A stretch of DNA of 64,000 nucleotides from Methylorubrum aminovorans (GTDB lineage Bacteria; Pseudomonadota; Alphaproteobacteria; Rhizobiales; Beijerinckiaceae). Each line of letters starts with the position of its first letter. Position 1 is the first letter of the stretch. A model generated the notes under the pieces. The model was not told the DNA's origin. It did not search any database and saw only the letters and a list, made by a program, of their open reading frames with translations. The stretch is from NCBI RefSeq assembly GCF_022179725.1, contig NZ_BPRC01000006.1, positions 124,001 to 188,000 of the forward strand, written 5' to 3'. Below, in pieces: positions 8,573 through 58,850 of this stretch. A program made the translations under genes and the position numbers.

Positions 8573-9262
8573 CTACCCTTGCCGGGCGCCGCCCATCATT
8601 GCCTGCATCCGCGAGAGCTGGGCGATGTGGCGCTGGATCAGCGGGAGCGCGCCCGCCGCGATGCGGCGCAGGGCTGGGTCCTCGCCGGCCTGCGCGTAGG
8701 AGCCGTGGATCTGGTACGCCTCCTGATGGCCCTGGAGCGAGGCGTTGACGAACATCGCGTCGTAGTCGGGGCCGGGCTGCATCCCCGAGAGCTGTGACAG
8801 GATCTGGGCCTTCTGCTCGTCCGTGGTCATGGCACCGGGGCCGGCTCCGCCGGGCACGCCCAGGGCGCCGCCGACGACCCCGCCCACCGCGCCGACGGTC
8901 GCCCCCGCGACACCGCCGGCCACCGCCAGCGGCGCGGCGACCAAGCCGCCGACGAGGCCGCCGGGACCGGCGGGTGCGCCGCCCGTCATCGGCGCGGCAC
9001 CGAGATACGGGTCGAGCTTGCGGGCGAGGTCGACCTGCTCGGTCACCTCGGCCCGGCTGAAGGCCTTGATGCGCGGATTGCGGGTCTTGGCGTGGGCGTC
9101 GCGCGCTGTGTTCTCGAGGAACAGGCCGCCCTTCGTCGCCATCGCGAGGTAGACGGGCGTCGGCATGGCACCGGCCGGCGCCGGTTGGGCCAGCGCCGTG
9201 CGGGTCACCGCCAGCGCGGCCGTTGCGGTCAGCAGAGTCGTCAGAAAATCGCGCCGATGCAT
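8573..9262 (-). CDS. Exported DUF4142-type protein
   Basis: A 229-residue secreted protein. The start at 9262 gives MHRRDFLTTLL followed by a hydrophobic stretch and an Ala-x-Ala site, a twin-arginine-type signal peptide. The mature part has two helical segments typical of the DUF4142 ferritin-like family: YLAMATKGGLFLENTARDAH, and near the end one containing SLQGHQEAYQIHGSYAQ and HIAQLSRM. They are separated by a long glycine/alanine/valine-rich insert (about residues 85-135) that looks like flexible or membrane-associated low-complexity sequence. Function is unknown. An upstream in-frame ATG at 9358 is less likely because it precedes the signal peptide. Confidence 0.75.
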   Translation of the reverse strand: MHRRDFLTTLLTATAALAVTRTALAQPAPAGAMPTPVYLAMATKGGLFLENTARDAHAKTRNPRIKAFSRAEVTEQVDLARKLDPYLGAAPMTGGAPAGPGGLVGGLVAAPLAVAGGVAGATVGAVGGVVGGALGVPGGAGPGAMTTDEQKAQILSQLSGMQPGPDYDAMFVNASLQGHQEAYQIHGSYAQAGEDPALRRIAAGALPLIQRHIAQLSRMQAMMGGARQG

Positions 9263-9416
9263 GGTATCGGATCTCCCGGTCTGGACACGACAGCCAGGCG
9301 CCGATTGTCTTGGAGCGGTGCCGGAGTCTGACGGGCAAAACCTTCGCGAAATCAGCAATGTTCCTGTGATCCAGGGGCTTCGACGCTCGAAGACGCTCGG
9401 GCGACCCGTGCCGGAT

Positions 9417-9991: not shown

Positions 9992-10121
9992 CCTCATGCT
10001 GAGGGGCTGCGTCAGCAGCCTCGAAGCACATCGCGACGGTTCTCCCGGCAACCCGATGCCGCGGGGCGATCGTTCAGGCGTGCTTCGAGGCAAGCTTGCA
10101 GCCCGGCGCCTCAGCATGAGG
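9992..10121. repeat. Long imperfect inverted repeat (intergenic)
   Basis: Outer arms CCTCATGCTGAG (9992-10003) and CTCAGCATGAGG (10110-10121) are perfect complements. Inner arms CCTCGAAGCA (10019-10028) and TGCTTCGAGG (10081-10090) are also perfect complements. The whole 130-bp unit can fold into a long hairpin. It resembles the dispersed intergenic palindromes of Methylobacterium and other Rhizobiales. It separates the GNAT gene from the metallophore operon and may act as a terminator or mRNA stabiliser. Confidence 0.8.
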
Positions 10122-10172: not shown

Positions 10173-10451
10173 TCACGTCCAGTCGAAGCGCAGCGTCTCG
10201 CGGAAGGCGAAGCGCTCGATGTGGCGCACCACGACGTCGCGCAGACCGGGCAGGCTGGCGGCATCCTGCGCGGTCAGATCGATCGTCAGGGTCTCCGCGT
10301 CGGCGGACAGCCGCGTCTCGCCGAGCGGCAGGGCGATCCGGGCGTTCGTGTCGCTGAACTCGGTCTCGAACCGGTGGGCCCAGTGCTTGCAGAGCTGCTG
10401 GAGATAACGGCCGGCATGCGGGGTGCTGACCACGGCGTGGCTCTCGGTCAT
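10173..10451 (-). CDS. DUF2218 domain protein at the end of the metallophore operon
   Basis: A 92-residue protein of the DUF2218 family, recognisable by the N-terminal ATPHAGRYLQQL-type segment (here STPHAGRYLQQLCKHWAHRF) and a C-terminal FRETLRFDW. Members are often found beside iron-uptake or siderophore genes, but no biochemical role is established. It lies 35 bp downstream of the AsbF-like gene on the same strand, so it is probably the last gene of the metallophore operon. The 9992-10121 hairpin follows it. Confidence 0.75.
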   Translation of the reverse strand: MTESHAVVSTPHAGRYLQQLCKHWAHRFETEFSDTNARIALPLGETRLSADAETLTIDLTAQDAASLPGLRDVVVRHIERFAFRETLRFDWT

Positions 10452-10486
10452 GGCGGTCTCCTGCGGTCTCTTGAACTGCGGCGTGC

Positions 10487-11323
10487 TCAGCGCGCGGCGT
10501 GGCGGGGGCTGGCGGCGTGGCGGCCGGCGGTGGCACTGCGCACGCGGAAAAGGTCGGTCGGCAGGACCGCGAACGAGGCGTCGCCGAACCATTCGAGCGA
10601 GGCTTCCGCCTGTGGCGGCAGCGTCTTCAGGAAGGTGCCGTAATCCAGCGCGCCCTCGAACAGGGCGGTCATGCCCTCGCGCCGTCCGGCCGCGGCGTAG
10701 ACGTTGGCCGGCTCGAACACCGGCAGGTCGGCCCGGCTGCGCACGTTCTTGAGGTGGTAATAGTCGATATGGGGGCTCAGCCGGGCATGGGCCGCGAGCG
10801 GATCGTCGCCGCCCTCCCAGACGTGGAGCGTGTCGAAATTCACCCGGAGGTTCGGGTGATCGACCGAAGCCAGCAGGTCGAGGAGCGAGTCGGTGGTGTC
10901 GGCGAGCGTGCCGGGATGCGTCTCGACCACCAGCCGCAGGCCGTGATCGGCGAGCTGGCCCGCCGCCATCCGCAGGCGTGCCGCGACGTGCGCCCGCTCC
11001 TCCGCCGAGGCGTCCGCACTGCCCTTGGTGCCGGCGAAGGTGCGCAGGCGCGGCGCGCCCCAGCTGCCCGCGAGCCGGGCGAGTTCGGCCGTCCGCTCGG
11101 TCAGGGTTTTTGGCGGTGCGTCGAGGGGCAGGTAGTCGCTCAGCATCGGCACGTGCAGGCCGTAGGCGGCGAGCCATTCGGCGTGGTCGCCGGGGCCGAG
11201 ATTGCGGGCGTGAACCCCCCACAACTCGATCCCGTCGAAGCCGTGGCCGCGGGCGAAGCGAGCGAGTTCGCCGATCGAGACGAGATGGTGGCGAAAGCTG
11301 ATGGTGCAGAGGGCGATTCTCAT
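10487..11323 (-). CDS. mllF: 3-dehydroshikimate dehydratase, AsbF-like (MllF)
   Basis: A 278-residue TIM-barrel enzyme of the sugar-phosphate isomerase/epimerase-like family that includes AsbF of petrobactin synthesis. AsbF turns 3-dehydroshikimate into 3,4-dihydroxybenzoate, the aryl cap of the metallophore. Visible metal-ligand segments are VVETHPGT, NFDTLHVWE, DYYHLKN and LEWFGD. It starts at 11323 in an ATGA overlap with the upstream carrier-AsbE gene, so it is coupled in the operon. In the lanthanide metallophore methylolanthanin the aryl group is reported as 4-hydroxybenzoate, so the exact product here should be treated as an aryl acid of this route. The mll name is from memory of the M. 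extorquens locus. Confidence 0.85.
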   Translation of the reverse strand: MRIALCTISFRHHLVSIGELARFARGHGFDGIELWGVHARNLGPGDHAEWLAAYGLHVPMLSDYLPLDAPPKTLTERTAELARLAGSWGAPRLRTFAGTKGSADASAEERAHVAARLRMAAGQLADHGLRLVVETHPGTLADTTDSLLDLLASVDHPNLRVNFDTLHVWEGGDDPLAAHARLSPHIDYYHLKNVRSRADLPVFEPANVYAAAGRREGMTALFEGALDYGTFLKTLPPQAEASLEWFGDASFAVLPTDLFRVRSATAGRHAASPRHAAR

Positions 11324-12630
11324 GCGGGGAGCCTTTCGCGGGAGGGCGGCGCGGCGTGTCCGAGGTCCGGGCTTCTCTGCCGCCACGCGGCGTAGGCCGC
11401 GGCGAGCTGCCGCTTGATCGCGAATTCCTGCGCATCGAGGGCATCGAGCCGCGCGAGGACGGGGGCGAGTTCGGCCGCGTCCCCGGTCCGGGCAAGCTTC
11501 AGCACGGCGTAGTGCAGGGCGGTGAGGCCGTTCACCAGGGCCTCGATCTCGTCGCAGATCCGCTGGAACTCCGGGTCCGGCCAGCGCAGGGCGCGCCAGA
11601 AGAAGGCGAAGCCGTGCTCGTAGGCCCATTTGCGGATGGTGATCACCGGCAGTTCGCGCAACGCCTCGCCGAGATCGGTCAGCTTCAAGCCGCCGCGCCC
11701 CTCGGCATGGGCGAGCACGATGGCGCGCGCCGCATCGATCAGTGGGTTGGCGTCGAGCCGGAAGCAGGCATCGAAGAAGGCCGCCAGATCCGTGTCCCTC
11801 GGCGGGTGGGCCAGCGAGGGATCGAAGCGGTAGCCGCCGGCCACGCTCGGTTGGCGGATGGCGTTGAGCATCCGCTCGCGCTCGATCTCGCCCTCCCAGC
11901 GGAAGTCGGGGTCGCGCACCTGCCAGAGGTCGGGATCGTCGGAGAGCGACACCAGCAGGTAGTGCGGGAAGGGGTTCTGGTTGAACTTGTTCTCCCGCTC
12001 GGGGAGGTGGAACATGTCGAGCATCACCATGATGCATTCGTCCGGTTGCCGCCGCTCCATGAGGTCGAGCAGGGTGGCGACGTTCTCCTCCTTCGAGCGG
12101 GAATGGTCGTACCAGGGCACGAGCGGCACGCCGTAGAGCCGCTCGAACCAGTAGCGGAACGACTCGTGATCCATCGCATCCGAGTGGTAGGCGAGCTTCG
12201 ACCCGTCGGTAATCGCGAACTCGGCATCCCAGATCAGGGCGTAGAACGGACGGTGATCGATGCCGCGGCGTTTCAGCCCGTCGCAGACGCAACTGACGAA
12301 GCAGTGGATCTTCAGATCGTAGGGCATCGCCCCGTGGACGCCCTCGGAGGGGGCCTCCGGTTCGGCGGCCGGTGTGGCCGGTTCCGCGCCCGGCGCCAGC
12401 AGGCGGGCGAGGTCAGCCACAGTCGAGACGTCCTGCCGGTTGATCGCCTCTTCCGGCACCGACACGCCGTGCGTCAGCTCCAGTGCCAGGATGAGCTGAA
12501 GCAACTGCACGGAATCGAGGTAGAGATCCTCGTTCAGCCGCGCCTCCGGCCCGAACCCATCGAGATGGGGATGGCGCATTTCCTCGCGCAGCACCGTGCC
12601 GATCGCGGCGATCAACGTCTCGTTGCTCAC
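11320..12630 (-). CDS. mllDE: Aryl carrier protein-AsbE fusion (MllDE)
   Basis: A 436-residue fusion of two proteins that are separate in Bacillus petrobactin synthesis. Residues 1 to about 80 are an acyl carrier protein with the phosphopantetheine attachment Ser40 in LYLDSVQLL. A linker rich in Pro, Ala and Glu follows (about 81-101). From Met102 (MPYDLKIHCF) to the end is an AsbE-like domain, which in Bacillus condenses the carrier-bound dihydroxybenzoyl group onto spermidine. The GTG start at 12630 overlaps the upstream gene's TGA (GTGA), and the stop overlaps the next start (ATGA). No other carrier is seen nearby, so the adenylating domain of the upstream gene should load this one. Confidence 0.88.
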   Translation of the reverse strand: MSNETLIAAIGTVLREEMRHPHLDGFGPEARLNEDLYLDSVQLLQLILALELTHGVSVPEEAINRQDVSTVADLARLLAPGAEPATPAAEPEAPSEGVHGAMPYDLKIHCFVSCVCDGLKRRGIDHRPFYALIWDAEFAITDGSKLAYHSDAMDHESFRYWFERLYGVPLVPWYDHSRSKEENVATLLDLMERRQPDECIMVMLDMFHLPERENKFNQNPFPHYLLVSLSDDPDLWQVRDPDFRWEGEIERERMLNAIRQPSVAGGYRFDPSLAHPPRDTDLAAFFDACFRLDANPLIDAARAIVLAHAEGRGGLKLTDLGEALRELPVITIRKWAYEHGFAFFWRALRWPDPEFQRICDEIEALVNGLTALHYAVLKLARTGDAAELAPVLARLDALDAQEFAIKRQLAAAYAAWRQRSPDLGHAAPPSRERLPA

Positions 12631-15605
12631 GCCACCGCCTCCAGGCCGCCGTCCCGGTACTGCGCGGCGACCGCGCGTCGCGAAATCTTGCCGTTGGCCT
12701 CCCGCGGGATCGCGCCGACCTGCACCGCCTCCACCGGCACCTGATGGCCGGCGAGCCAGCGGCGGCACCAGTCCTGAAGGGTGCGGGGCGGCATGGGGCC
12801 TTCCGCGCTGAACAGCAGCGTCACCCGCTCGCCCGCGAACGGATCGGGCCGGGCGAAGGCGACGGCGTCGGTGATGCCGGGCAGGGCCATGACCACGTCC
12901 TCGACCTCGCCGGGATAGACGTTGAGGCCCGAGACGTTGATCGTGTCGTCCCGGCGCGCGACGAAGACCAGCATGCCGTCGGGTTGGAGGTAGCCGAGAT
13001 CGGCGGTGCGGATCGTGCCGCCCTCCCCCTCGACCACGATCTCTGCCGGAGCGTCGGGACCCGTTCCCGCGCGGACGCGGTGATGCGGCAGCGGGCGGCC
13101 GATGGCGTCGGCGCGGCGCAGATCCGGGTTGATCGCGATGCAGCCGGCTTCCGAGCAGCCGTATTGCTGGAACAGGTGGGTGACGCGCTCCCGGATGGCG
13201 GCAAACCAGGGCGCGGGCAGGAGCGTGCCCGAGACCATCGCCGCGTGGATTGTCTCGCCCTCGGGCAGGAGCCGGGCCAGCGTGTGCAGCATGGCCGGCG
13301 CGGTGTAGAGCACCGGGCGCTCGATCTCGCGCAGGCGGCGCAGAAGATATTTCGGATTCGTGGTGTCGACGATCACCGGCACGCGGCCGCGGCGTAGGCC
13401 GACGAACAGCCCGCAGATCAGCCCGTAGGAATGGGTGATCGGGCAGGCGATGACCGGAATCATCCCGTCCGGCTCGGTGAAGGCGCCGACGTAGCTCTCG
13501 ATCTCGCGCTCGACCGCGCCCCAGGGGCGGGCGATGCATTTGGGCTCGCCAGTGGTGCCGGAACTCATCTGGAGCAACTCGCCCTCTCCCGGCACCGGCG
13601 GGGCGGCGCCAGCCAAGGCCTCGCCCTCCAGGCTGTCGAGGAACAGGCGGTGGCAGCTGGCGCGCTCGGCGAGCCGGCGCGCGCCCTCATCGGGCAGCGC
13701 CGGATGGATCGGCAGCAGGCTCGCGCCATGCCGGCGGGCGGCGAGGATGAAGGCGAGGCTCTGGGCGGTGTCGCGAAAGCGCGCGGCGACACGCTCGCCG
13801 CTGCCGCCGCGGAAGGCCGCCGCGTCCCCGGCGCGGCGGATGGCGGCCTCCATCTCGTCGGCAGGGATGGTGCGGCCGTCGATCTCGATCATGCAGTCTC
13901 CGGAAGGGGCGTCGGGGGAGTGGAACAGGGTGTTGGGCGCGTGGAGGCTGCCCTGCGCCTCGCCGAGCCCGAGCTTGCGCGACAGAAGCGCCTCGACCCG
14001 CAGCCGGGGCGCCTCGACGGCGAGGCGGGCGAAGCGCGCCTCCAGCCCGTACTCCGCAGCGTGGCGCCGCAACTGCCGGCCGAGGCGGCGCCAGAAGCCC
14101 GCCTCATCGAGGCCATGCCGACGCGCGAGAGCGGCGGTGATCTCGCTGAGGTTGAAGACGAACAGGCTGTCGGTGACGAGTTCGGCCAGCGTCGCGGCCG
14201 AGCGCATGGCGTGGAAGCGGTCCTCCGCCGGGCCGGCATGGGCGGGGTCGATCGCCCCGAAATCCGGCACGCCTGCCGGGTCGGTCACGAAGTCGGGGGC
14301 GTATTCCGCGCTCTCGTGGAAGTCGCGCAGGATCACCCGTTCCGGCCAGCCGTCGCGGTGGACCAGGATCATGTTCTGGCCGTGCGCCTCCAGGGCGACG
14401 CCGTGGGCGGCGAGCAGGTGCCACACCGGCAGCACCGCGACCGCGACTAGGCGGTCGAGCCAGGCGTCGCGGCCGTATCGTTCGAGCCAGGGCGCAACGA
14501 AGGGGCTGCCATCCGCTTCGCATACGGTCAGCGCGTTGAAGGGCACGGCCGCCTCGCCGGGCGCGAGGCGCGGGCTCTCCCGCCAGATCGCGGCGAGATG
14601 GCCGGCGAGCGGCCCGCCCCGGTCGGCGAGTGCGGCGGCGTATTCACGCAGCACCGTCACGTGCTTACGCAGTGTGGGGTCGGCGGCGACGATGTCCGCG
14701 AGCCAGTCCGACAGGGCCGGGCCGGTCAGCACGAAATGCGGGTCGAGGATGCGCAGGCTGGAGGTCGAGACGACGGCGAGCGCCAGCTTCACGCTCGCGG
14801 CGGACGGATCATCGTGGTTGTGCAGCGTGCGCAGGGATTGGCTGGCGACGTAGCGCGGGCCGGCGATGCCGAGGGCGACGGCGCGGCCCTCCGCCAGCCA
14901 GGGCTGCAAGGCGTCTTTTTCGAGCCGGCGCATCTGCCAGGGATGGACCGGCAGAAGGGCGTGCGTGTCGAGAGAGTGCCCGGTCGCGCCGAGACGCTCC
15001 GCCAGCACGTCCCATTCCCCGCCGAGTTCGGCCCGCCAGAACGCGGCTTCCGCGCCCGGCCCGGCGAGGGCGATCGTGTCGCGGCGGATCGCCAGCCATT
15101 CGAGGCGGAACGGCGCAGCGGCTTCGGGCCCGTAGCGGCGGTGATCCTCCAGGCTGAAGCCGGTGCGGGCCTTGAAGCTCGGATGGTAGGGATGACCCTC
15201 CCAGAGCGCTGCATCCAGGGCGGCGAAGGGCAGAGTGCGGCGCTCCGGCGGCGACAGGTTTTCGGCGTTCCAGCGGCAGAGTTCGACCGTCTGTTCAAGC
15301 TCCGCCAGCAGCCGCGCCCGGTGCTCGGGAGCGGCGGGCAGGGCCTCGACGAGGGCGGCGAGATCGGCCGGTTTCCAGCCCCCCTCCCCGTCCGCCATCT
15401 CGACCGAACCGGGATCGAGGCGAGGGCGGCCGAAAGCGCCGAGCGTGCCGGTTGCGCGGAAGCGGTGCGGGCCGAGGCGCCATTCGATCCGACCGGAGGC
15501 GCCGACAGGTCCGCGCTCGGCCAGCCCCTCGAACAGGACGGCTTCCGCCAACTGGCGCAGGACGCGTGCCTCCGGCGGCTCCCTGTCGTTACGAAGCGAG
15601 GGCAT
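12627..15605 (-). CDS. mllBC: NIS synthetase-aryl adenylating enzyme fusion, AsbB-AsbC-like (MllBC)
   Basis: A 992-residue bifunctional protein. Residues 1-571 are an IucA/IucC-type, NRPS-independent siderophore synthetase, with LLPVHPWQM, the ATP-binding strand SVKLALAVVSTSSLR and the FhuF-like C-terminal part with EAHGQNMILV. It would join an amine to a citrate carboxyl. Residues 572-992 are an AMP-forming ligase with the phosphate loop MSSGTTGEPK and the C-terminal GKISRRA lysine segment; by analogy to AsbC it activates the hydroxybenzoate and loads the carrier. The boundary is marked by an in-frame Met572 (MIEIDGRTIP). The start at 15605 overlaps the upstream gene's stop by 17 bases. Standalone relatives are about 600 and 410 residues, so both halves are complete. 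Confidence 0.9.
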   Translation of the reverse strand: MPSLRNDREPPEARVLRQLAEAVLFEGLAERGPVGASGRIEWRLGPHRFRATGTLGAFGRPRLDPGSVEMADGEGGWKPADLAALVEALPAAPEHRARLLAELEQTVELCRWNAENLSPPERRTLPFAALDAALWEGHPYHPSFKARTGFSLEDHRRYGPEAAAPFRLEWLAIRRDTIALAGPGAEAAFWRAELGGEWDVLAERLGATGHSLDTHALLPVHPWQMRRLEKDALQPWLAEGRAVALGIAGPRYVASQSLRTLHNHDDPSAASVKLALAVVSTSSLRILDPHFVLTGPALSDWLADIVAADPTLRKHVTVLREYAAALADRGGPLAGHLAAIWRESPRLAPGEAAVPFNALTVCEADGSPFVAPWLERYGRDAWLDRLVAVAVLPVWHLLAAHGVALEAHGQNMILVHRDGWPERVILRDFHESAEYAPDFVTDPAGVPDFGAIDPAHAGPAEDRFHAMRSAATLAELVTDSLFVFNLSEITAALARRHGLDEAGFWRRLGRQLRRHAAEYGLEARFARLAVEAPRLRVEALLSRKLGLGEAQGSLHAPNTLFHSPDAPSGDCMIEIDGRTIPADEMEAAIRRAGDAAAFRGGSGERVAARFRDTAQSLAFILAARRHGASLLPIHPALPDEGARRLAERASCHRLFLDSLEGEALAGAAPPVPGEGELLQMSSGTTGEPKCIARPWGAVEREIESYVGAFTEPDGMIPVIACPITHSYGLICGLFVGLRRGRVPVIVDTTNPKYLLRRLREIERPVLYTAPAMLHTLARLLPEGETIHAAMVSGTLLPAPWFAAIRERVTHLFQQYGCSEAGCIAINPDLRRADAIGRPLPHHRVRAGTGPDAPAEIVVEGEGGTIRTADLGYLQPDGMLVFVARRDDTINVSGLNVYPGEVEDVVMALPGITDAVAFARPDPFAGERVTLLFSAEGPMPPRTLQDWCRRWLAGHQVPVEAVQVGAIPREANGKISRRAVAAQYRDGGLEAVA

Positions 15606-17367
15606 GGCCGGCCTCGCCCCGAGCCGCCGCGTGAAGCGGGTTCGGCATGTCGATGTAGTTGCCGCGGCCGTCGCCCGAGGCGAGTTCGTCGCGGTCGGAC
15701 AGGCGCACCCGCAGGTTGGCCTTGGTGCAGAGCGTCGGCCCGTCGAGCACCGAGCGGGCGAAGGCGTAGCCCGCACCCGTCAGGCGGTGCGCCATCGCTT
15801 CAAGGCGCCGGGCGAGATCGTCGAGGAGCGTTTCCTCGCGCGCCAGCCCGTCATGGCCCATCCGGGCGATCACGGAAAAGATCTGGTTGACCACGAGATA
15901 GTAGGCGAGGCGTCGGCGGATCTCGCCGTCGGCGAAGTAGAGCGAGGCGATCGAACCGGTTTCGGGCGCGTCGCGCAGGAGCCGCGGGCGGGCGGCCTCG
16001 GAGAGGTAGAAGCCCTGGTTGTCGCGGTAGAAGCCGCGCTCCGGCCAGCCGGAGGCGACGTCGAGCAGGGCGTTCTGCTGGTGGGCCTCAAGCGCGATGC
16101 CGTGCCCGTCGTAGAGGGCGACGACGGGCTCCAGCATGCAGTCGAGATAGCGGCTAAACCACGTGCGGGCGGCCTGGGCGCGGGCGGCCGCGCCGTCCGG
16201 GCAGACCTGCCGCAGGAGCGCCTCCAGCCGCGAGGGGCGGCCGGGCAGCGGCTCGGCGGTGAGTGCCGCCAGGGTGGCGACCCCCCGCTCCGCGCCGTTC
16301 CGGAAGGGGTTTTCGCGCAGGACCGTCTCGAAGCCGCTCTCCTCGCGGCCGGGACAGTGCAGGGTGAGATAGGCGGGGTCGGCCAGGATCCGGAAATTCG
16401 GATGGCGCGCGCCGAACCCGCTTTTCGCCAGCAGCCGCGCCATGGCGACCCCGGCCTTGAGTTCGGCGAGCCGGTTCACCCGCAACGAGTTGGTGAGGGT
16501 GACGGGCAGTGAGAACTTCGCCATCCACGGGCTCTCGGCGGCGTAGACGGTGCGCAGCGAGGAGGTCGCGGTGAAGCGCGGGCCGAAGGCGCCGAGGGGC
16601 CGCAGGCGGCCCGCCTCGACGAGCGCCGCGACGTGCGGCTCCAGCATCAGCGCCTCGGCCTGGAGCGGGTGCATCGGCAGGGCGATCTCGCCCGCGCGCA
16701 GATCCAGGCGGGCGTCATCCGAGCCGATGAGGTCGAGGGCGAGGTCGGGCGCGGCGCGGGTCTCCGCCGAATCGTGGCGCACGAGGCTCGCCTGCGCCGC
16801 GAACACGGCGAGCCGGAACGAGCCGCCCTCCTCCGGCGCGTAGGTGCGGGCCTGCCAGGTGGTGAGGCCCTGGCGGCTCTTGGGCGTCGGGTGCAGCCAG
16901 TGGCCGAAGACGAGGGCGCGCTCGGCGGCGATGAAGCCGGTGGCGTCCGCCTCCCGCTCCGCAAAATCAAGCAGGCGTGCGGTCTCGCGGTAGCTGTCGA
17001 GCACGCGCCCGAGCAGTTCCAGTTCACGTTCGCGGGCGGTCTCGCCCCGGCCCTCGTCGGCGCGGGAATAGGCCTCGCCGAGAAGCTCCTGCAGCGCGCG
17101 CATCGGCGCCACCGCCCGCCAGCGCGGTTCGTGCAGGTGACGCGTCCAGAGACGGCCGAAGGCGTGCGCGCCGCACAGTGACGGGGACAGGATCTCGGCG
17201 CGGATCGCGAGGCGACGGCTGCGCAGGTTCCACTCGACGCAGCGTGCGGGCGGGCCGTCCGGCAGCGCGTGGCGGACCCGGATGCCGGGGTCGATCTCGC
17301 GCAGATATCCGTTGGCGAAGCTGCGGAAGGCGGCCGCCTCGGCCACGGCTTGAGACGATGGTGGCAT
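15589..17367 (-). CDS. mllA: NIS synthetase, AsbA-like (MllA), first gene of the metallophore operon
   Basis: A 592-residue IucA/IucC-family synthetase. In petrobactin synthesis AsbA condenses citrate with a spermidine. Family marks are GHWLHPTPKSRQG, ALPMHPLQA-type sequence (here IALPMHPLQAEAL), the ATP-binding part FTATSSLRTVYA with KFSLPVTLTNSLRVN, and EAHQQNALLDV near the C-terminus. The ATG at 17367 was preferred over an upstream in-frame start because a GAGG-type ribosome site precedes it and the added residues have no family similarity. It is the promoter-proximal gene of the biosynthetic operon (15589-17367, then mllBC, mllDE, mllF and the DUF2218 gene). Confidence 0.9.
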   Translation of the reverse strand: MPPSSQAVAEAAAFRSFANGYLREIDPGIRVRHALPDGPPARCVEWNLRSRRLAIRAEILSPSLCGAHAFGRLWTRHLHEPRWRAVAPMRALQELLGEAYSRADEGRGETARERELELLGRVLDSYRETARLLDFAEREADATGFIAAERALVFGHWLHPTPKSRQGLTTWQARTYAPEEGGSFRLAVFAAQASLVRHDSAETRAAPDLALDLIGSDDARLDLRAGEIALPMHPLQAEALMLEPHVAALVEAGRLRPLGAFGPRFTATSSLRTVYAAESPWMAKFSLPVTLTNSLRVNRLAELKAGVAMARLLAKSGFGARHPNFRILADPAYLTLHCPGREESGFETVLRENPFRNGAERGVATLAALTAEPLPGRPSRLEALLRQVCPDGAAARAQAARTWFSRYLDCMLEPVVALYDGHGIALEAHQQNALLDVASGWPERGFYRDNQGFYLSEAARPRLLRDAPETGSIASLYFADGEIRRRLAYYLVVNQIFSVIARMGHDGLAREETLLDDLARRLEAMAHRLTGAGYAFARSVLDGPTLCTKANLRVRLSDRDELASGDGRGNYIDMPNPLHAAARGEAGHALAS

Positions 17368-18254
17368 GATCCTCAAAACCTCATCCTCGAAAGGAGCCTT
17401 CGGGGCCGGCCCCGGCCGTTCTGTCGATCGACGGCGCCCCACATGGCGCGTCGGCGGCCCCGCACGCGGATGACGGCGGCCATCCGCTTGCCGGCGCGCG
17501 GGCCTCACCGCCGTCGTGCGGGCCGACGGCGTGCCGAACTCACCGTTGCGGAGAGGGGCAAAAATCGATGCGCGATTTCGTAAGTGGGAAGAAGATGTTG
17601 GGAGAAGCGTAAGAGTAAGAAAATTGCTTTTCGTTGTACTTGCTCATCGGACTGAGGACTCCCTCGAATCGCGTAAAGCTGAGGGCGTGTTGCGCAAACT
17701 TCAAGTGCGCGTCAAGTGAAGTTGAGCCGATTGGAATTGTTCTTGATATAGGGTGATACGGTGTTTGTTGTTCCGTTGCAGTTGCTTGGCGGTGCAGATG
17801 CCCTTGATTTATTCTTGCCTGTTGCGAGTTGCGCCTGGAGGTCCCTCGCTTGCCACGGCGCCCCTCGAGAAGCGGCGCGTATGACGCCCGATCGGTGATT
17901 GTGGCGCGTCACCGCCTCGTCGCGGCGCCCACCATGCCGCCGGCTTCATTCGGATCGGGGCTCGACCCCCGACTTCGGTTTCGACCCCGCGGTATGGACC
18001 CGGCGGGGGAGCACCCGCAGCGTGGCGGCGAACCAGCCTGTTGCGGATCTGCAACGAGATGATGAAATGGTTTCGATGCTTGAGTTGTAATAATTCTTGT
18101 CTTCAGCTTCTGGCAGACATTTCGGTTGTTAGTCCAACGTGTTGCGGAAGCGACGGCGCCTAGACTGGAAGTTATACAAGCTATTGCGGGACTTGCATCG
18201 TCCGCCCCTCTCGTTCTGGTCGCTCCTCACTGATCGAACGGTGCGGGATCATCT
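17368..18254. promoter_or_regulatory. 887-bp divergent regulatory region between mllA and the sigma factor gene
   Basis: No convincing gene lies here; the short open frames have no ribosome site or recognisable product. The middle (about 17560-17830 and 18060-18200) is clearly more AT-rich than the flanking genes, as expected for promoters in this genome. It must carry the start signals of the biosynthetic operon leftward and of the sigma/receptor genes rightward. A palindrome lies at 17697-17723. I cannot assign a -35/-10 pair with confidence. Confidence 0.6.
17697..17723. promoter_or_regulatory. Candidate operator palindrome upstream of mllA
   Basis: Arms AACTTCAAGT (17697-17706) and AAGTGAAGTT (17714-17723) match as an inverted repeat at 8 of 10 positions, including the outer seven, around a 7-base spacer. 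It sits in the AT-rich core of the intergenic region, about 330 bp before mllA. It is not a match to a regulator site I know, so the role is inferred from position only. Confidence 0.3.
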
Positions 18255-18797
18255 GTGAGCGACGGGGCCGATGTCATGACGGGAGGGGCGGCGGGGGTGT
18301 CGATCGACGCCCTGTACCGGCACGAGGGCCTGAAGCTCCGGCGCTTCCTCGGCCGCCTGCTCGACAACCCGGCCGATGCCGCGGATGCGAGCCAGGAAAC
18401 CTATATGCGCATGGTCGCCGCGCTCTCGCGCACGAGCATCGAGCACCCGTCCGCCCTGCTGTTTCGCATCGCCACCAACGTCGCCCTGCGGATGCGCAAC
18501 CGCGGCCGGCTGGAACGGACCCTGTTCGCGGCGAAATGCGAGGCGGAACTGGCCGAGGTGGCCGACGGCTACGCTCTCCCGGAGCGGCAGGCGATCGCCC
18601 GTCAGGAGCTGCGGCGCCTCGCCGGGGTGATCGACGCGTTGCCGCCCCGCTGCCGCGAGGTGTTCCTGCTCAGCCGCCTCGACGGCCTTGCCAACGGAGA
18701 GATCGCGTTGCGCCTCGGCATCTCGCGCAACATGGTCGAGAAGCACATCATCAAGGCCCTCCTGCAGTGCCGCCGCAGCCGCCTCGATCTTTTTTGA
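18255..18797 (+). CDS. mluI: FecI-type ECF sigma factor of the metallophore system (MluI)
   Basis: A 180-residue extracytoplasmic-function sigma factor. Region 2 has DALYRHEGLKLRRFL and the core-binding DASQETYMRMV. Region 4 has LPPRCREVFLLSRLDGL with the recognition helix in NGEIALRLGISRNMVEKHI, the pattern typical of FecI-like iron-starvation sigmas. With the FecR-like and receptor genes that follow it forms a cell-surface signalling cascade: loaded receptor to FecR to sigma. The start is a GTG at 18255; an ATG at 18276 is a possible alternative. It probably drives the receptor and perhaps the divergent biosynthetic genes. The mlu name is from memory of the M. extorquens locus. Confidence 0.88.
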   Translation: MSDGADVMTGGAAGVSIDALYRHEGLKLRRFLGRLLDNPADAADASQETYMRMVAALSRTSIEHPSALLFRIATNVALRMRNRGRLERTLFAAKCEAELAEVADGYALPERQAIARQELRRLAGVIDALPPRCREVFLLSRLDGLANGEIALRLGISRNMVEKHIIKALLQCRRSRLDLF

Positions 18798-18895
18798 ACG
18801 AGTCGCATCAGGAGGCCGCGACCTCGTTGATCTAAGGGGATAGGACACCCGCGCGGCGCCATGTCGGGCTGCCGGAGGCCCCCGGGGGATGAGAC

Positions 18896-19864
18896 GTGGC
18901 CGGCAGCGACGGGGCAGAGGCCGACGAGACCGACGACGGCGACGATCCGGTCGAACGCGCGGCCGCGGCCTGGGTCGCGCGGCTTTCCTCCTCCGACGCC
19001 ACCGAGGCCGACCGCCGGGAATTCGAGGCGTGGCGCAGGGCCGACCCGGCCCACGCGGCGGCCTACGCCGAGATGGATGCGCTGTGGCGCAGGCTCGGGC
19101 AGCTTCCCGATCCCCGCCCCCGCGAGGGGCTTCCCAAGGGGTCGCCCAAGCGGCCGCCGAAGACGCTTGCGAGCTTGGCCGCCCTCGCCCTGTTCGGAGG
19201 CGGCCTGGCATACGAGGTCGGGCTCCTCGACCGGCTGCGCGCGGATCTGTGGAGCGATGTCGGCACCATCGCGCACGCGACGCTTCCCGACGGCAGCGGC
19301 GTCGCGCTCAACACCGACACGGCGATCGCGCTGCAGTTCACCGAGCGGGAGCGCGGGATCGCGCTTCTGCGCGGCGAGGCCAGCTTCGATGTCGTGCCCG
19401 ATCCCAACCGCCCGTTCGTCGTGCGCGGCGGCGGCCTGAGTGTGCGCGCGGTCGGAACCCGCTTCTTCCTGCGCGCGGATGGGGCACTCCGTCCCGTGGG
19501 CGTGGCGGAGGGGCGTGTCGACGTGTCGGGGCCGAGCGGGCGCGCCGTGGTCTCGGCCGGAGAGGAAATCCGTATCGGCGGCGGCGCCCTGCAGGTGACG
19601 GCGGCCGATGTAGAGCGCGACCTGGCTTGGCGCGACGGCCGGCTGATCTTCGCAGGACAGCCGCTGGCGGCGGTCCTGGCGGAACTGAACCGCTACCGCC
19701 GCGGGCGAATCGTGCTGCTCGATCCCCGGCTCGGCGAACGGCGGGTGACCGGCGCCTTCGACGCCCGCAACACCGACGAGGCCCTCGACGTGATCGCCGC
19801 GACCATGGGCGCGCGCATCCGGCGCCTCTCGCCCCTGCTGGTGCTAGTCGGATCGCCCCTGTGA
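18896..19864 (+). CDS. mluR: FecR-family transmembrane sigma regulator (MluR)
   Basis: A 322-residue regulator. The cytoplasmic N-terminus (about 1-78) binds the sigma factor and has the family's ERAAAAWVARLSS and EFEAWRRADPAHAAAYAEM segments. A single membrane helix follows (about 82-100). The periplasmic FecR domain includes TLPDGSGVALNTDTAI and GEASFDVVPDPNRPF. The C-terminal small domain (QPLAAVLAELNRYRRGRIVL) resembles the short signalling domain that contacts the TonB receptor. The GTG start at 18896 follows a GGGGGATGAG ribosome site. It sits between the sigma gene and the receptor, as in fecIRA. Confidence 0.9.
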   Translation: MAGSDGAEADETDDGDDPVERAAAAWVARLSSSDATEADRREFEAWRRADPAHAAAYAEMDALWRRLGQLPDPRPREGLPKGSPKRPPKTLASLAALALFGGGLAYEVGLLDRLRADLWSDVGTIAHATLPDGSGVALNTDTAIALQFTERERGIALLRGEASFDVVPDPNRPFVVRGGGLSVRAVGTRFFLRADGALRPVGVAEGRVDVSGPSGRAVVSAGEEIRIGGGALQVTAADVERDLAWRDGRLIFAGQPLAAVLAELNRYRRGRIVLLDPRLGERRVTGAFDARNTDEALDVIAATMGARIRRLSPLLVLVGSPL

Positions 19865-19938
19865 GGGCGGCCGAAAAAAATCGCGCGCGCCACGTCAGGA
19901 GTTCGCGGGCCCGTTGATCTTCATCATCGAGGGCGCGG

Positions 19939-22557
19939 ATGACGCGACGCGTGCCGCCCCTCGCGATGGATCGATGGGGCTTTGGCATGGCGTCGCGCGC
20001 GCGCAAGTTTTCACGGGGCCGGGTGGCGGGGCTCGCGCTGGCCGGCGTGTCGGTCGCGGTGATGGCCCAGGCGGCTGTCCAGGCCGGCGAGATCACCGGC
20101 GAGGCGAAGCGCACGCGTGGCCCGGCGGCGCGCACGATCCTGGCCGAGACACCGATGGCCGCCGAGCCGGTTCGCCTCGCCATCCCGAAAGGCTCGCTGG
20201 AGAGCGGTCTCGTCGCCTTCACCGAGCAGGCCGGGGTCAAGCTGGTCTACCCGACCGCGCTGACGGCGCGGCTGGAGACGCAAGGGCTCGCCGGCGAGTT
20301 CGCGCCGATCGAGGCCCTGACCAGGATCCTGGAGGGCACGGGCCTCACTTACCGCCCGGCCGGCGCCTCGACCATCACCCTGGTCAACCCACGCTACGTC
20401 CAACTCGGCGCGGAGGCTGCGGGCGCGGTGCAGCTCGACGAGCTGCATGTCCAGGGGCAAGGTCAGGGTCGTGCCGCGGTCGCCGGCCTGCCGCCGCCCA
20501 CGGGAACCGTCGGACAGCCGCCCGTGCCCTATGCCGGCGGCCAGGTCGGTTCAGGAACCCGGGTCGGCTTGCTGGGCAACCGCTCCGTCCTGAAGACGCC
20601 CTTCAGCATCACGGGCTACACCGAGAAGCTGATCGAGGATCAGCAGGCGGTGTCGCTCGCCGACGTCGTGCTGAACAACTCATCGGTGCGCAACGATGCG
20701 CCGCCCTATAGCGAGCGCGATTCCTACTTCATCCGCGGCTTCTCGGTCACCAACCTCGACACCGCCTTCGACGGCCTGTTCTATCTCGCCAATCCGCGCC
20801 GCTCCTTCACCGAGGGGCTGGAGCGCGTCGAGATCCTGCTCGGCCCCTCCGCGCTTCTCAGCGGCGGCACCGGCCGCGTCGGCGGCACGATCAACCTCAT
20901 CCCGAAGCGCGCCTACGACGAGCCGTTCGCGCGACTCACCACGACCTATCTCAGCGACGCCCAGATCTGGACCCATGCCGATCTCGGCCGCCGCTTCGGT
21001 GAGTTCAAGGAATGGGGCGTGCGTTTCAACGGCGCCTACCGCACCGGCGCCACGCCGCTCGACAACAACGCGATCGAGGTGGGGGTCGCCGCGCTCGGCC
21101 TCGACTATCGCGGCGACCGGTTCCGCGCCTCGCTCGACATGACCCACTCGACGCAGAACGTCACGGCGCCGACCTCACTGTTCAACGCGGTCGCGCCGGG
21201 CATCGCGATTCCGCGGGCCCCGAATAACCGGATCAACACCGCAAACCCCTTTGAGTACAACGACAGCCGCTACGGCATGATCGCGGGCCGGGCCGAGTAC
21301 GACGTCCTGCCCGACACGACGGTCTACATCGCCGGCGGCGCCAGCCGCTACAACGAGGACTTCCTCACCTCGAACTACCGCGTGACGAGCACGACCGGGC
21401 TGGCGACCAATACGCTCGCGATCCAGCCCCAGGAGATCCAGGGCCTGACCGGCGAGGTCGGCCTGCGCACCCGCTTCAGCACCGGCTTCCTCGACCATCA
21501 GGTGAACATTTCCGCAGTCGAGGCGAACAACAAGAACTTCCGCAGCGGCTTCGTGCCCCCTGTCTTCACCCCTTACACGATCAACATCTATAATCCTGTC
21601 TATCTGCCGACTGGGTCGATTCCAACGATCGGACTGCCCCGCTCCGCCGCGCAGCCGCTCTTCGCCCAGCTCTCCGCACGCAGCGTGGCGATCGCCGACA
21701 CCCTGTCGCTGTTCGGCAGCGACCGGTTCCTGCTGACGCTGGGCGGGCGCTACCAGGAGATCGACCAGCAGGGCTTCGCCACTCGGCCAGGACCGACACA
21801 GGGGCAGGTGACCTCGAATTATCAGGAGGGCCGCTTCAGCCCCGCCATCACCTTCGTGCTGAGCCCATTCGAGAACCTGTCGTTCTACGGCAACTACATC
21901 GAGTCGCTCGACCCGGTGGCGGCTGCGCCCCTCACGGCGATCAACAGCAACGAACTCTTCCCGCCCGCCGTCGGGCGGCAGAAGGAGATCGGCGTCAAGT
22001 ATGATTTCGGCACCATCGCCGCCACGGCTGCCCTGTTCGAGATCGAGCTGCCGAACGCCTTCACCGATCCCGGGACCCGCATCTATTCGGTCAGCGGCCG
22101 GCAGCGGAACCGCGGCGTCGAGCTGAACGTATTCGGCGAGGTCGTGCCGGGCCTGCGGCTGCTCGGCGGCGTCACCTTCATCGACGCGGAACTGGTCAGC
22201 ACCCCAGGGGGGCAGTTCAACGGAAAGGCCGCGCCCGGCGTGCCGGATACGGCGTTCAACCTCTACGCCGAGTACGACCTGCCGCCGTGGCTGGCGCCGG
22301 GCCTAACCCTGACCGGCCGGGCGATCTACACGAGCAGCATGTTCTATGATCAGGCCAACACCCAATCGGTCCCGGACTGGACCCGCTTCGATGCAGGCCT
22401 GCGCTACACGACCGAGGGCGTGAACGGGAAACCCGTCGTGTTCCGCGCCCTCGTCCAGAACCTGCTCGACGATTCGTACTGGGCCTCCGCCGCCCGCGGC
22501 TTCCTCGCCGTCGGCGCGCCGCGCACCTTCATCGTGTCCGCCTCGGTCGATTTCTGA
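19939..22557 (+). CDS. mluA: TonB-dependent receptor with N-terminal signalling domain (MluA)
   Basis: An 872-residue outer-membrane receptor. A signal peptide (core GRVAGLALAGVSVAVMAQA) is followed by an STN signalling domain (about 70-135; IPKGSLESGLVAFTEQAG to GTGLTYRPAGASTITLV). This is the FecA-type extension that talks to FecR. Next come a plug domain (TPFSITGYTEKLIEDQQA, GPSALLSGGTGRVGGTINL) and a 22-strand barrel ending in the C-terminal aromatic signature SASVDF. It should import the metal-loaded metallophore with energy from TonB. The start at 19939 has GAGGG 5 bases upstream; ATGs at 19966 and 19987 are alternatives that also keep a signal peptide. No TonB, ExbB/D or inner-membrane permease for this ligand is obvious beside it. 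Confidence 0.92.
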   Translation: MTRRVPPLAMDRWGFGMASRARKFSRGRVAGLALAGVSVAVMAQAAVQAGEITGEAKRTRGPAARTILAETPMAAEPVRLAIPKGSLESGLVAFTEQAGVKLVYPTALTARLETQGLAGEFAPIEALTRILEGTGLTYRPAGASTITLVNPRYVQLGAEAAGAVQLDELHVQGQGQGRAAVAGLPPPTGTVGQPPVPYAGGQVGSGTRVGLLGNRSVLKTPFSITGYTEKLIEDQQAVSLADVVLNNSSVRNDAPPYSERDSYFIRGFSVTNLDTAFDGLFYLANPRRSFTEGLERVEILLGPSALLSGGTGRVGGTINLIPKRAYDEPFARLTTTYLSDAQIWTHADLGRRFGEFKEWGVRFNGAYRTGATPLDNNAIEVGVAALGLDYRGDRFRASLDMTHSTQNVTAPTSLFNAVAPGIAIPRAPNNRINTANPFEYNDSRYGMIAGRAEYDVLPDTTVYIAGGASRYNEDFLTSNYRVTSTTGLATNTLAIQPQEIQGLTGEVGLRTRFSTGFLDHQVNISAVEANNKNFRSGFVPPVFTPYTINIYNPVYLPTGSIPTIGLPRSAAQPLFAQLSARSVAIADTLSLFGSDRFLLTLGGRYQEIDQQGFATRPGPTQGQVTSNYQEGRFSPAITFVLSPFENLSFYGNYIESLDPVAAAPLTAINSNELFPPAVGRQKEIGVKYDFGTIAATAALFEIELPNAFTDPGTRIYSVSGRQRNRGVELNVFGEVVPGLRLLGGVTFIDAELVSTPGGQFNGKAAPGVPDTAFNLYAEYDLPPWLAPGLTLTGRAIYTSSMFYDQANTQSVPDWTRFDAGLRYTTEGVNGKPVVFRALVQNLLDDSYWASAARGFLAVGAPRTFIVSASVDF

Positions 22558-22613: not shown

Positions 22614-22802
22614 GCCCGTTCGCACCCGTGCCGTCTGCCGCTGAAACGGGCAGATCGACGGGGCGCCCTGCCCGTCCCCTGACCAGCCCGCCCCACCGCT
22701 CCCGCCAAGCTGACCGATCTGTGCCTTTTGTGGCTTCTGGCACGCGTCCTGCAGTGTGGTTTTTGACCGCTTTGATGGATGCGTGGGAACTCGGGGCGCC
22801 GC

Positions 22803-24386
22803 ATGAACGGAATGATGGATCGCAGACGGTTCCTGCAAGGAGCCTTGCAGGGCGGTGCTGCCGCTGTGGGATTTGCCCAGATCAATCCCGACTTCCTGAT
22901 CTCCTCGGCCTTCGCGCAGACCGGCAAGCCGCTGGTCTTCCTCTCGGCCGAGAACATCACCGGCAACTGGGACCCGACCGCCCACACCACGCTCTCGCAG
23001 AAGAACATCGAGGGCTTCGTGATGGGCTTCCTGACCCGCACGCCGATGACCCTCGATGACCCCGGCAAGGTCGTCTACGAACTCGCCACCGACATCCAGC
23101 TCCTCGATCCCCACCGCCTGCAGATCAAGCTGCGCAAGGGCGTGCACTTCCACGACGGCAAGCCGTTCGGGCCCGAGGACGTGAAGGCGACCTTCGAGTA
23201 CGGCGCGGGCAAGGACCGGCCGGCGCAGTGGTATCCCGGCCCGACCGAGACGCTCACGATCACCACGCCCGACGACGAGACCGTGATCGTCGACACCTCC
23301 AAGGGCGGCTACCCCGCCCACCTCTTCATCTTCCTGGCCTCGTTCCTCCCCATTCTGTCGGCCAAGGACGTCGCCGAGGGGCCGGGCGGCGCCCTCACCC
23401 GCCGCCTGAACGGCACCGGGCCTTTCCGTTTCGTCGAGCAGCGCGGCAACGACACCGTGCTCAAGGCCCATGACGGCTATTTCCGCGGCAAGCCGGCGGT
23501 GCCGGGTATCAACTTCACCTTCACCGGCGATTCGACCACGCGGATGCTGTCGCTGATGAACGGCCAGGCCTCGATCGTCGAGCGGCTCGAACCCGAACAG
23601 GTCGAGACGGTTAAGGGCAACCCGAAGATCGCGATCAACGAAGTGGTCTCGGTCGAGAACAAGTATCTCTGGTTCCGCTGCTCCAAGCCGCCCTTCAACG
23701 ACGTGCGGCTGCGCCTGGCCGCCTGTCACTCGATCGACCGGGCGATGCTGCTGGAAATCCTCGGCGCGGCGGGCCATGCCTCGGCCAACTTCATCTCGCC
23801 GGTGAAGTTCGGCTACGTCGATCTGAAGAACTACCCGGCCTACGACCCTGCCAAGGCCCAGGCGCTGCTCGCCGAGGCGGGCTTCCCCAAGGGCAAGGGG
23901 CTGCCGCCGCTCGAATACATCACCTCGGTCGGCTTCTACCCGAAGACCAAGGAATACGGCGAGGTCATCACCGCGATGCTCAACGAGCAGGGCTTCCCGG
24001 TGAGCCTCACGGTGCTTGAGCCGGCGGCCTGGAACGAGCGGCTCTATCACCGCCCCGGCGGCGGGCCCGGCCACATGGTCGATTGCGGCTGGTCCACCGC
24101 CTCGCCCGAACCCGATCTGGTGCTGCGCACTCACTTCCACTCCTCCTCGCACCGGATCACCGGCATCGAGGATGCGCAGATCGACGCGAGCCTCGACCGG
24201 GAGCGCGCGGCGCCGACGCTGGAGGAGCGCAAGGCCATCCTCCAGAACGAGACCATGCCGCTGCTGGCCGCCAAGATGCCGGCGCTGTCGCTGTTCACCT
24301 CGGTGATGATCCACGCGATGCAGCGGGAACTGAAGGGCCTCTACATCTACCCGGACGGCTCCATCGACGCTTCGAAAACCGCCTGA
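22803..24386 (+). CDS. ABC transporter substrate-binding protein, dipeptide/oligopeptide (SBP_bac_5) family
   Basis: A 527-residue periplasmic binding protein of the DppA/OppA class. The N-terminus MNGMMDRRRFLQGALQGG is a twin-arginine signal, so it is probably exported folded. The mature part has the family's LRKGVHFHDGKPFGPEDVKATFE and the GTGPFRFVEQ segment. It is the first gene of a plus-strand operon with two permeases, a fused ATPase and four enzymes. The ATG at 22803 was chosen; in-frame starts at 22779, 22812 and 22815 cannot be excluded and do not change the signal. Ligands in this family range from peptides to opines, nickel complexes and glycosides, and the ligand here is unknown. 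Confidence 0.88.
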   Translation: MNGMMDRRRFLQGALQGGAAAVGFAQINPDFLISSAFAQTGKPLVFLSAENITGNWDPTAHTTLSQKNIEGFVMGFLTRTPMTLDDPGKVVYELATDIQLLDPHRLQIKLRKGVHFHDGKPFGPEDVKATFEYGAGKDRPAQWYPGPTETLTITTPDDETVIVDTSKGGYPAHLFIFLASFLPILSAKDVAEGPGGALTRRLNGTGPFRFVEQRGNDTVLKAHDGYFRGKPAVPGINFTFTGDSTTRMLSLMNGQASIVERLEPEQVETVKGNPKIAINEVVSVENKYLWFRCSKPPFNDVRLRLAACHSIDRAMLLEILGAAGHASANFISPVKFGYVDLKNYPAYDPAKAQALLAEAGFPKGKGLPPLEYITSVGFYPKTKEYGEVITAMLNEQGFPVSLTVLEPAAWNERLYHRPGGGPGHMVDCGWSTASPEPDLVLRTHFHSSSHRITGIEDAQIDASLDRERAAPTLEERKAILQNETMPLLAAKMPALSLFTSVMIHAMQRELKGLYIYPDGSIDASKTA

Positions 24387-24479
24387 CCAGGACTGCCGCG
24401 CCCGGCGCGTGACCCGGCCCACCTCCGCGGGCGGACGGGCCCCGCCCCGCCGATTCCGTCACCGGACCCGAAGCCTTCG

Positions 24480-25460
24480 ATGTTCGTTCTCAGCTTCCTC
24501 GCCCGGCGCCTCGCGCAGGGTGCGGTCATCATCTTCCTCGTCTCGCTGCTGATCTTCACCCTGCTGCGGGTGATGTCGGGCAATCCCGTGCGCCAGATGG
24601 TGGGCGGGATGGCGCCCGACTCCCTCGTGGAGCAGATCGCCACCACGATGGGCCTGCGCGATCCGATCCTCGTGCAGTTCGGCCGCTACGCTGCCCAAGT
24701 CGTCCAGGGTGACCTCGGCCGCAGCTTCGTGCGGCCGGCCAACGGCGCGGCGACGGGCGGCGCGAATTTCGACGACCTGACCCGCGGCGCGCGCGCCGGG
24801 GTCGGCGACCTCATCCTCGACACCCTGCCGATGACCCTGCAACTCGCCGCCCTGGCGCTTGCCATCGCGCTCGCCTTCTCGGCTCTGCTCGGGATCGCGG
24901 CGGGCCTGCGCCCCGGCGGGTTCTTCGACCGGCTCGCCTTCGCGGTCTCATCGGTCTTCATCTCGATCCCGAACTTCTGGCTCGGCATCGTGCTGGCCCT
25001 GCTCCTGTCGGTGAAGCTCGGCTGGCTGCCAGCAATCGGCTACGGCGGCTTCTCCTACACCGTGCTGCCGGCGCTGGTGCTCGCCGTCGAATTGTCGCCG
25101 GTGCTGATCCGGACCCTGTCGAGCGCGGTCGCCGCGCAGATGAGCGAATCTTACGTCGCCGTCGGGCATGTGCGCGGCCTGTCGCGCCCGCGCATCGTCG
25201 CCGCGCATGCCCTGCGCAACGCCTCCGTGCCGCTCCTCAACCTGCTCGGCGTGCAGTTCTCCTCGCTGCTCGGGGGCGTGATCATCGTCGAATACATCTT
25301 CGACTATCCCGGCCTCGGGCTGCTCACCATCAACGCCGTGCTCCAGCGCGACTTCCCGCTGATCCAGGGCATCGCGATCGTCACCAGCGCGATCTTCGTC
25401 CTCATCAACATCCTCGTCGATCTCGCCGCGACCTCCATCGATCCGAGGCTCGAATACTGA
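24480..25460 (+). CDS. ABC transporter permease, DppB-like
   Basis: A 326-residue inner-membrane permease with about six helices. It has the N-terminal DppB signature (FLARRLAQGAVIIFLVSLLIF), the Gly-Asn-Pro motif MSGNPVRQM, and the EAA coupling loop near SYVAVGHVRGLSRPRIVAAHALRNASVPLL. It pairs with the next gene to form the membrane channel for the dipeptide-type importer. The stop TGA overlaps the next start codon by one base, so translation is coupled. The 94-bp gap from the binding-protein gene has no strong terminator. Confidence 0.92.
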   Translation: MFVLSFLARRLAQGAVIIFLVSLLIFTLLRVMSGNPVRQMVGGMAPDSLVEQIATTMGLRDPILVQFGRYAAQVVQGDLGRSFVRPANGAATGGANFDDLTRGARAGVGDLILDTLPMTLQLAALALAIALAFSALLGIAAGLRPGGFFDRLAFAVSSVFISIPNFWLGIVLALLLSVKLGWLPAIGYGGFSYTVLPALVLAVELSPVLIRTLSSAVAAQMSESYVAVGHVRGLSRPRIVAAHALRNASVPLLNLLGVQFSSLLGGVIIVEYIFDYPGLGLLTINAVLQRDFPLIQGIAIVTSAIFVLINILVDLAATSIDPRLEY

Positions 25461-30535: not shown

Positions 30536-30545
30536 GGAGGGGACC

Positions 30546-57988: not shown

Positions 57989-58007
57989 GGCGTTGGATCC
58001 CGATACG

Positions 58008-58025
58008 TTTCAACGTGTGTTGAAA
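58008..58025. promoter_or_regulatory. ArsR operator palindrome
   Basis: TTTCAA (58008-58013) and TTGAAA (58020-58025) form a perfect inverted repeat with a 6-base spacer, in the 50-bp gap between arsH and arsR. The TTCAA...TTGAA layout matches the sites of ArsR/SmtB-family repressors. Confidence 0.75.
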
Positions 58026-58038
58026 TGATGGATCGATC

Positions 58039-58840: not shown

Positions 58841-58850
58841 GGAACCGCCG

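Follow-up and report, generated by a model that had tools for sequence, protein, structure and literature searches.

The mll/mlu locus of Methylorubrum aminovorans

The 64-kb window of Methylorubrum aminovorans DNA considered here (by the window we mean the whole stretch of 64,000 nucleotides that was analysed) has the full set of genes homologous to mll/mlu, a metallophore locus known from pink methylotrophs; in M. extorquens AM1 it comprises ten genes: mluA, mluR and mluI together with mllA, mllBC, mllDE, mllF, mllG, mllH and mllJ (PMC11317620). The identification of the locus is secure, and it represents one further genome of an already published system. Pfam domains and a reading of the gene junctions, set against the published Table 1, give window counterparts for all ten gene types in matching orientation, with mluI-mluR-mluA on the (+) strand and mllA, mllBC, mllDE, mllF, mllG, mllH and mllJ on the (-) strand. 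An earlier note on this DNA had pointed to a likeness to the methylolanthanin mll/mlu architecture, which holds down to both gene fusions; it had also placed the locus at 10173-22557, which is right as to contents and too short in extent, as mllH and mllJ also belong and take it to 8573. The features are listed by coordinate.

mllJ: 8573..9358, (-) strand; DUF4142 protein (48.4 bits), start uncertain; 87-98% identity in five close relatives
mllH: 9417..~9917, (-) strand; GNAT acetyltransferase whose predicted substrate is the polyamine linker; start approximate; 86-99% identity in five close relatives
mllG: 10173..10451, (-) strand; DUF2218 protein (Pfam)
mllF: 10487..11323, (-) strand; AsbF-like 3-dehydroshikimate dehydratase, predicted 3,4-dihydroxybenzoate (3,4-DHB) synthase; AP_endonuc_2
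mllDE: 11320..12630, (-) strand; 436 residues, PP-binding (aryl carrier) and AsbE-like DUF6005 ligase; GTG start
mllBC: 12627..15605, (-) strand; 992 residues, AsbB-like synthetase of the NRPS-independent siderophore (NIS) type and AsbC-like aryl-adenylating domain; IucA_IucC, FhuF, AMP-binding and AMP-binding_C
mllA: 15589..17367, (-) strand; AsbA-like NIS synthetase, IucA_IucC and FhuF; start read from the sequence
divergent intergenic control region: 17368..18254, no strand; from a DNA alignment of relatives
mluI: 18255..18797, (+) strand; extracytoplasmic function (ECF, FecI-type) sigma factor, Sigma70_r2 and Sigma70_r4_2; 92-99% identity in five close relatives
mluR: 18896..19864, (+) strand; FecR-type anti-sigma factor, FecR and DUF4880; GTG start assumed
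mluA: 19939..22557, (+) strand; TonB-dependent receptor, TonB_dep_Rec_b-barrel and Plug, with a weak N-terminal STN
mluA plug-and-barrel stretch: 20479..22348, (+) strand; ancestry unlike the rest of the locus in comparison with L191 and L088
Opp/Dpp-type ATP-binding cassette (ABC) importer: 22779..28221, (+) strand; SBP_bac_5, two permeases and an ATPase; a neighbour, probably outside the system

Homologues of AsbA to AsbF, the six functions that the earlier note had claimed, are all present (by Pfam and, for AsbF, by a match to 3dx5), and the fusions of B with C and of D with E are single chains of exactly the 992 and 436 residues that it gave. Its ATGA/GTGA overlaps proved exact when the junctions were read: there is a 17-nt overlap between mllA and mllBC, the mllBC stop shares GTGA with the mllDE start, and the mllDE stop shares ATGA with the mllF start. 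The biosynthetic set is, as described, divergent from a signalling block in which an ECF sigma factor and a FecR anti-sigma factor adjoin the receptor (Pfam), the STN match of MluA being weak at 25.2 bits, under the gathering score of 28.4, with E 1.4e-5.

L191, from the same genus, comes closest of the eight relatives whose genes were compared one by one, at 90-99% per gene and 77% in the receptor. Of the named loci, Methylorubrum thiocyanatum has the nearest (L011; 88% in DNA across the biosynthetic genes and 93% in DE), among the best 80 of 162 confirmed matches, a list whose counts are for that reason not to be read as prevalence. The AM1 locus (META1p4129-4138, PMC11317620) is alike, by gene types and layout, in its ten genes, both fusions, divergent arrangement, DUF2218, GNAT and DUF4142; for the window locus, product, expression and metal are predictions from the genes, and among close relatives the barrel of the receptor varies. 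The rhodopetrobactin locus of Rhodopseudomonas palustris shares the AsbA-F functions, the D+E fusion, GNAT, DUF2218, the receptor and cell-surface signalling, but keeps B and C as separate genes, and these are also separate in the R. infernalis relative L074, which has FecBCDE adjoining and whose genome gave no AsbF match. Compared with asbABCDEF of Bacillus petrobactin, with which it has the six enzyme functions in common, the window locus adds two fusions, a linker acetyltransferase, a Gram-negative receptor and sigma/anti-sigma signalling.

MllF and the aryl acid

MllF aligns with AsbF (3dx5) over residues 1-257 at E 5.4e-68 and scores 92.9 bits on PF01261, for which the cut-off is 31.1. 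Nine AsbF active-site positions, whose roles are known from work on AsbF, are kept in MllF and identical in 60 of 60 homologues. MllF is thus predicted to be a catalytically plausible 3-dehydroshikimate dehydratase, and its intact active site predicts 3,4-DHB and so a ligand of the rhodopetrobactin type. A chorismate lyase of the UbiC type, as a source of 4-hydroxybenzoate (4-HB), was found in none of 16 genomes including that of the window, in a search that detected the E. coli control; other routes to 4-HB were not searched. When the aryl pocket of the C domain was compared between clusters with and without AsbF, there were four fixed differences, none mapping to the pocket.

No AsbF match was found in any of six genomes searched (L016, L018, L020, L022, L025 and L027), so that the aryl acid must there come from elsewhere. 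Five of these carry Methylobacterium clusters (L018, L020, L022, L025 and L027) with separate B and C, a GNAT gene and a FecBCDE-type importer; L016 also has separate B and C and a GNAT gene, and FecBCDE was not seen in its locus sequence, which ends early.

Gene fusions, XoxF and iron transport in relatives

According to the AM1 authors, the BC fusion is unseen in characterised homologues (PMC11317620). In our comparison 82 loci encode a DE homologue (80 lie on genome contigs and two on plasmids), and B and C share one open frame in 15, ten of them in Methylorubrum, Methylobacterium or the Hyphomicrobiales metagenome-assembled genome L028 and five Shinella-like. Close XoxF is present in 9 of the 14 BC-fused genomes searched and in none of the remaining five, namely four Shinella genomes and L028, which is possibly incomplete. 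The Shinella BC-fused clusters (L008, L029, L030, L032 and L034) resemble the window locus in having B+C and D+E fused and AsbF, with sigma factor, FecR and receptor in four of five; they are 50-61% identical in A, B, C, DE and F, have no mllH match, and in four of five are adjoined by an iron-type ABC transporter or its binding protein. In an A+B+C+DE tree of 81 of 83 sequences (L012 and L070 were dropped), with weak support at several deep nodes (0.48, 0.77), they form a clade of their own, far from Methylobacterium. The fusion without XoxF in Shinella and L028, together with this separate clade, implies more than one origin or transfer of the fusion, which is ruled out as a lanthanide marker. 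One of these clusters, L008 (NZ_CP084754.1), is named Roseateles in its record, a label that is doubtful because its mll-region regulators and receptor are closest to those of Shinella loci, at 75-91% identity.

Within the host genus close XoxF, at E 1e-220 or better, occurs in 107 of 111 genomes and DUF6005 in only 24; by presence lists, XoxF is found in 23 of the 24 DUF6005-positive and 84 of the 87 DUF6005-negative genomes. The sole DUF6005 genome without an XoxF match at this threshold is G233. Over the 14 BC-fused genomes and the 111 of the genus, the locus does not track lanthanide-dependent enzymes. The window's own genome encodes two pyrroloquinoline quinone dehydrogenases with a DYD motif and one with DYA, which we take to mark XoxF-type and MxaF-type enzymes respectively, and two lanmodulin-like proteins, 95% and 67% identical to the query. 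From its XoxF-like and lanmodulin-like genes the host probably uses lanthanides; it does not follow that the locus serves lanthanides, given how much more widespread XoxF is in the genus than DUF6005.

Iron-type transport genes stand beside the locus in a number of relatives, with FecBCDE-like genes in L007, L018, L020-L023 and L025-L027 and FecCD in L028. A PepSY_TM gene adjoins the receptor in L015, L017 and L024, the three Methylobacterium clusters examined for it, and on another contig (C5, L179) the window's genome has a 78% identical PepSY_TM gene.

A mosaic receptor

Along the identity profile the window and L191 agree at 97-100% in mluI and mostly at 92-98% across mluR and the N-terminal ~190 residues of MluA, after which identity lies at 68-89% from ~20505 to 22300 and then recovers. 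Against M. rhodesianum L088 the identity rises from ~83-91% to 87-98% over the same stretch of mluA. There are 617 informative sites, at which the window matches one of these two relatives and not the other: within 20479-22348 it sides with L191 at 45 of 382, beyond that stretch at 192 of 235, a contrast reached in 0 of 5000 shuffles. L014 has a third, different mid-barrel, and there are at least three barrel types among the six loci compared (window, L191, L088, L011, L013 and L014). That the plug-and-barrel of mluA is mosaic relative to its signalling domain and to the biosynthetic genes is well supported, and the likeliest reading is that plug-and-barrel modules have recombined.

The biosynthetic genes do not follow the barrel, which suggests either other pressures, such as phages and bacteriocins, or strain differences in the ligand. 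One could speculate, as a decidedly improbable extension, that the one conserved biosynthetic operon works with a different form of metal or ligand from strain to strain, with MluA barrel modules swapped between Methylorubrum lineages while the signalling domain, the sigma and anti-sigma factors and biosynthesis stay fixed, and that the type of barrel decides between recovery of rhodopetrobactin-iron and of methylolanthanin-lanthanide. The same mosaic pattern would come from escape from phages or bacteriocins.

Iron, lanthanides and the likely function

We read the locus as probably a siderophore-type (rhodopetrobactin-type) system, serving ferric iron first and lanthanides secondarily in this lineage. 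This view draws on the presence of all ten AM1 genes, on the conserved MllF site and on the iron-type transport beside the loci of relatives, and also on published work. In M. extorquens PA1 a highly similar cluster yields rhodopetrobactin B, more of it under iron limitation, and methylolanthanin was not detected (PMC13251462); both iron limitation and neodymium (Nd) elicit a response of the mll promoter (PMC11317620); and rhodopetrobactin B is the better iron binder of the two ligands, both of which precipitate lanthanides (PMC12780827). Methylolanthanin itself binds iron weakly and precipitates lanthanides in vitro (PMC12780827; PMC13367227).

Gene content, domains, fusions, gene order and the predicted MllF active site are read directly from the window; the product, the metal and every biochemical step of the following scheme are what we infer. 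By homology, MllF would convert 3-dehydroshikimate to 3,4-DHB, the C part of MllBC would adenylate this aryl acid and load it onto the D part of MllDE, and the E part of MllDE would attach it to spermidine. Coupling of the arms to citrate would fall to MllA and the B part of MllBC, and MllH would acetylate the linker, again by homology. The secreted ligand would come back via MluA, whose signalling domain would lift the inhibition of MluI by MluR and so allow MluI to turn on both divergent units. Lanthanides would act secondarily, either as a substrate or by disturbing the iron supply.

Several points weigh against putting iron first. The AM1 product is methylolanthanin with 4-HB, with no 3,4-DHB analogue seen, and AM1 carries mllF too despite this product (PMC11317620); the published products of AM1 and PA1 conflict. 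With Nd2O3, which is poorly soluble, the mll cluster of AM1 is upregulated by a mean of ~32-fold, and its deletion leads to less Nd accumulation (PMC11317620). Within the Methylorubrum-type loci neither FecBCDE nor PepSY was found, and the single FecCD gene of the window's genome lies outside the locus (contig C18). Nor is PepSY_TM proof of iron, since the proteins listed for this family include copper-linked ones as well as siderophore reductases.

The earlier note had argued for a lanthanide rather than iron, which is not supported as stated: the fusion and XoxF do not track each other, nor do XoxF and the locus, and the literature shows iron responses too. In its full form this view holds that the locus is a dedicated lanthanophore system, with methylolanthanin and its 4-HB arms as the product, MluA importing the lanthanide complex and the iron effects being regulatory cross-talk. 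The AM1 phenotype and product structure (PMC11317620), the two XoxF-like and two lanmodulin-like genes of the host and the lack of an iron permease in the locus all speak for it, yet we consider it unlikely. Fusion and XoxF are not strictly co-occurring, 84 of the 107 XoxF-bearing genomes of the genus are without the locus, MllF looks intact, and a 4-HB source was not found in the UbiC search described above, which left other routes aside. In addition, AM1 remains able to grow when it lacks mxaF and mll (PMC11317620), the lanthanide receptor of Methylorubrum is, according to PMC9301485, LutH, and methylolanthanin precipitates lanthanides (PMC12780827). At the opposite end, the locus could be a plain iron siderophore locus for rhodopetrobactin B, with lanthanides doing nothing except precipitating the ligand and thereby causing iron shortage. 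The PA1 product and its iron response (PMC13251462) fit this, and the possibility is named by the authors of PMC12780827, who then call it rash; it seems distinctly unlikely to us in view of the AM1 overexpression strain, in which Nd accumulation rises ~3.5-fold and iron accumulation is said to be unaffected (PMC11317620).

A further question is how the ligand would cross the inner membrane. The absence of an exporter noted earlier holds for the 45 window frames scanned with Pfam; the absence of an inner-membrane permease holds for the locus proper and fails just beyond it, where the Opp/Dpp-type ABC importer begins 222 bp past mluA on the same strand, though seemingly unlinked. Uptake of opine metallophores uses such an importer, and of 10 mll-positive Methylorubrum-type genomes searched (a genome with two handles being taken once) 9 have the genes, at 95% identity or more where compared. 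As the inner-membrane arm of the system it is nevertheless highly improbable, and we rejected it as the likely missing permease: in L191 a deletion has taken most of the importer (L191 1-3396 against window 23191-31280) while mll is kept, its genes other than the receptor being 90-99% identical; two of nine mll-negative genomes (L189 and L190) carry it without mll, their homology to the window beginning at 22735-22738, just ahead of the importer; and the regulon reported for AM1 is META1p4129-4138 only (PMC11317620).

Control region and other features of the window

In the divergent control region, 17730-17747 (18 nt), much of 17631-17721 and much of 18154-18198 are conserved in all five aligned relatives. 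No iron box of the Irr/ICE (iron control element) type was found in the window with up to 3 mismatches allowed, Rfam gave no matches, and a scan for sigma-70 promoters and terminators led nowhere (5 terminator-like sites against 7.1 expected). The gap between mllG and mllH contains, at 9992-10121, an inverted pair of CCTCATGCTGAGG, which resembles a repetitive extragenic palindromic element and has 3 matches in the window with at most 1 mismatch, against 0.11 expected.

Elsewhere, 30546-53043 holds a set resembling choline/glycine betaine breakdown and uptake (choline kinase-like protein, Rieske oxygenase and reductase, flavin mononucleotide (FMN) oxidoreductase, DUF3483, sarcosine oxidase-like protein, serine dehydratase, AraC regulator and OpuAC), and 57242-59918 an arsenic-type cluster with an FMN reductase, a helix-turn-helix regulator, ArsC and an SBF-family transporter.

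Implications

The double fusion no longer counts as evidence that lanthanides are used. If a ligand with another aryl acid, for example 4-HB, is sought, the Methylobacterium clusters without an AsbF match are more promising than the double-fusion loci. The comparison sharpens the question of iron versus lanthanides in these bacteria and points to MllF and the receptor barrel; if the type of barrel did choose the complex that is recovered, this could explain the disagreement between AM1 and PA1.

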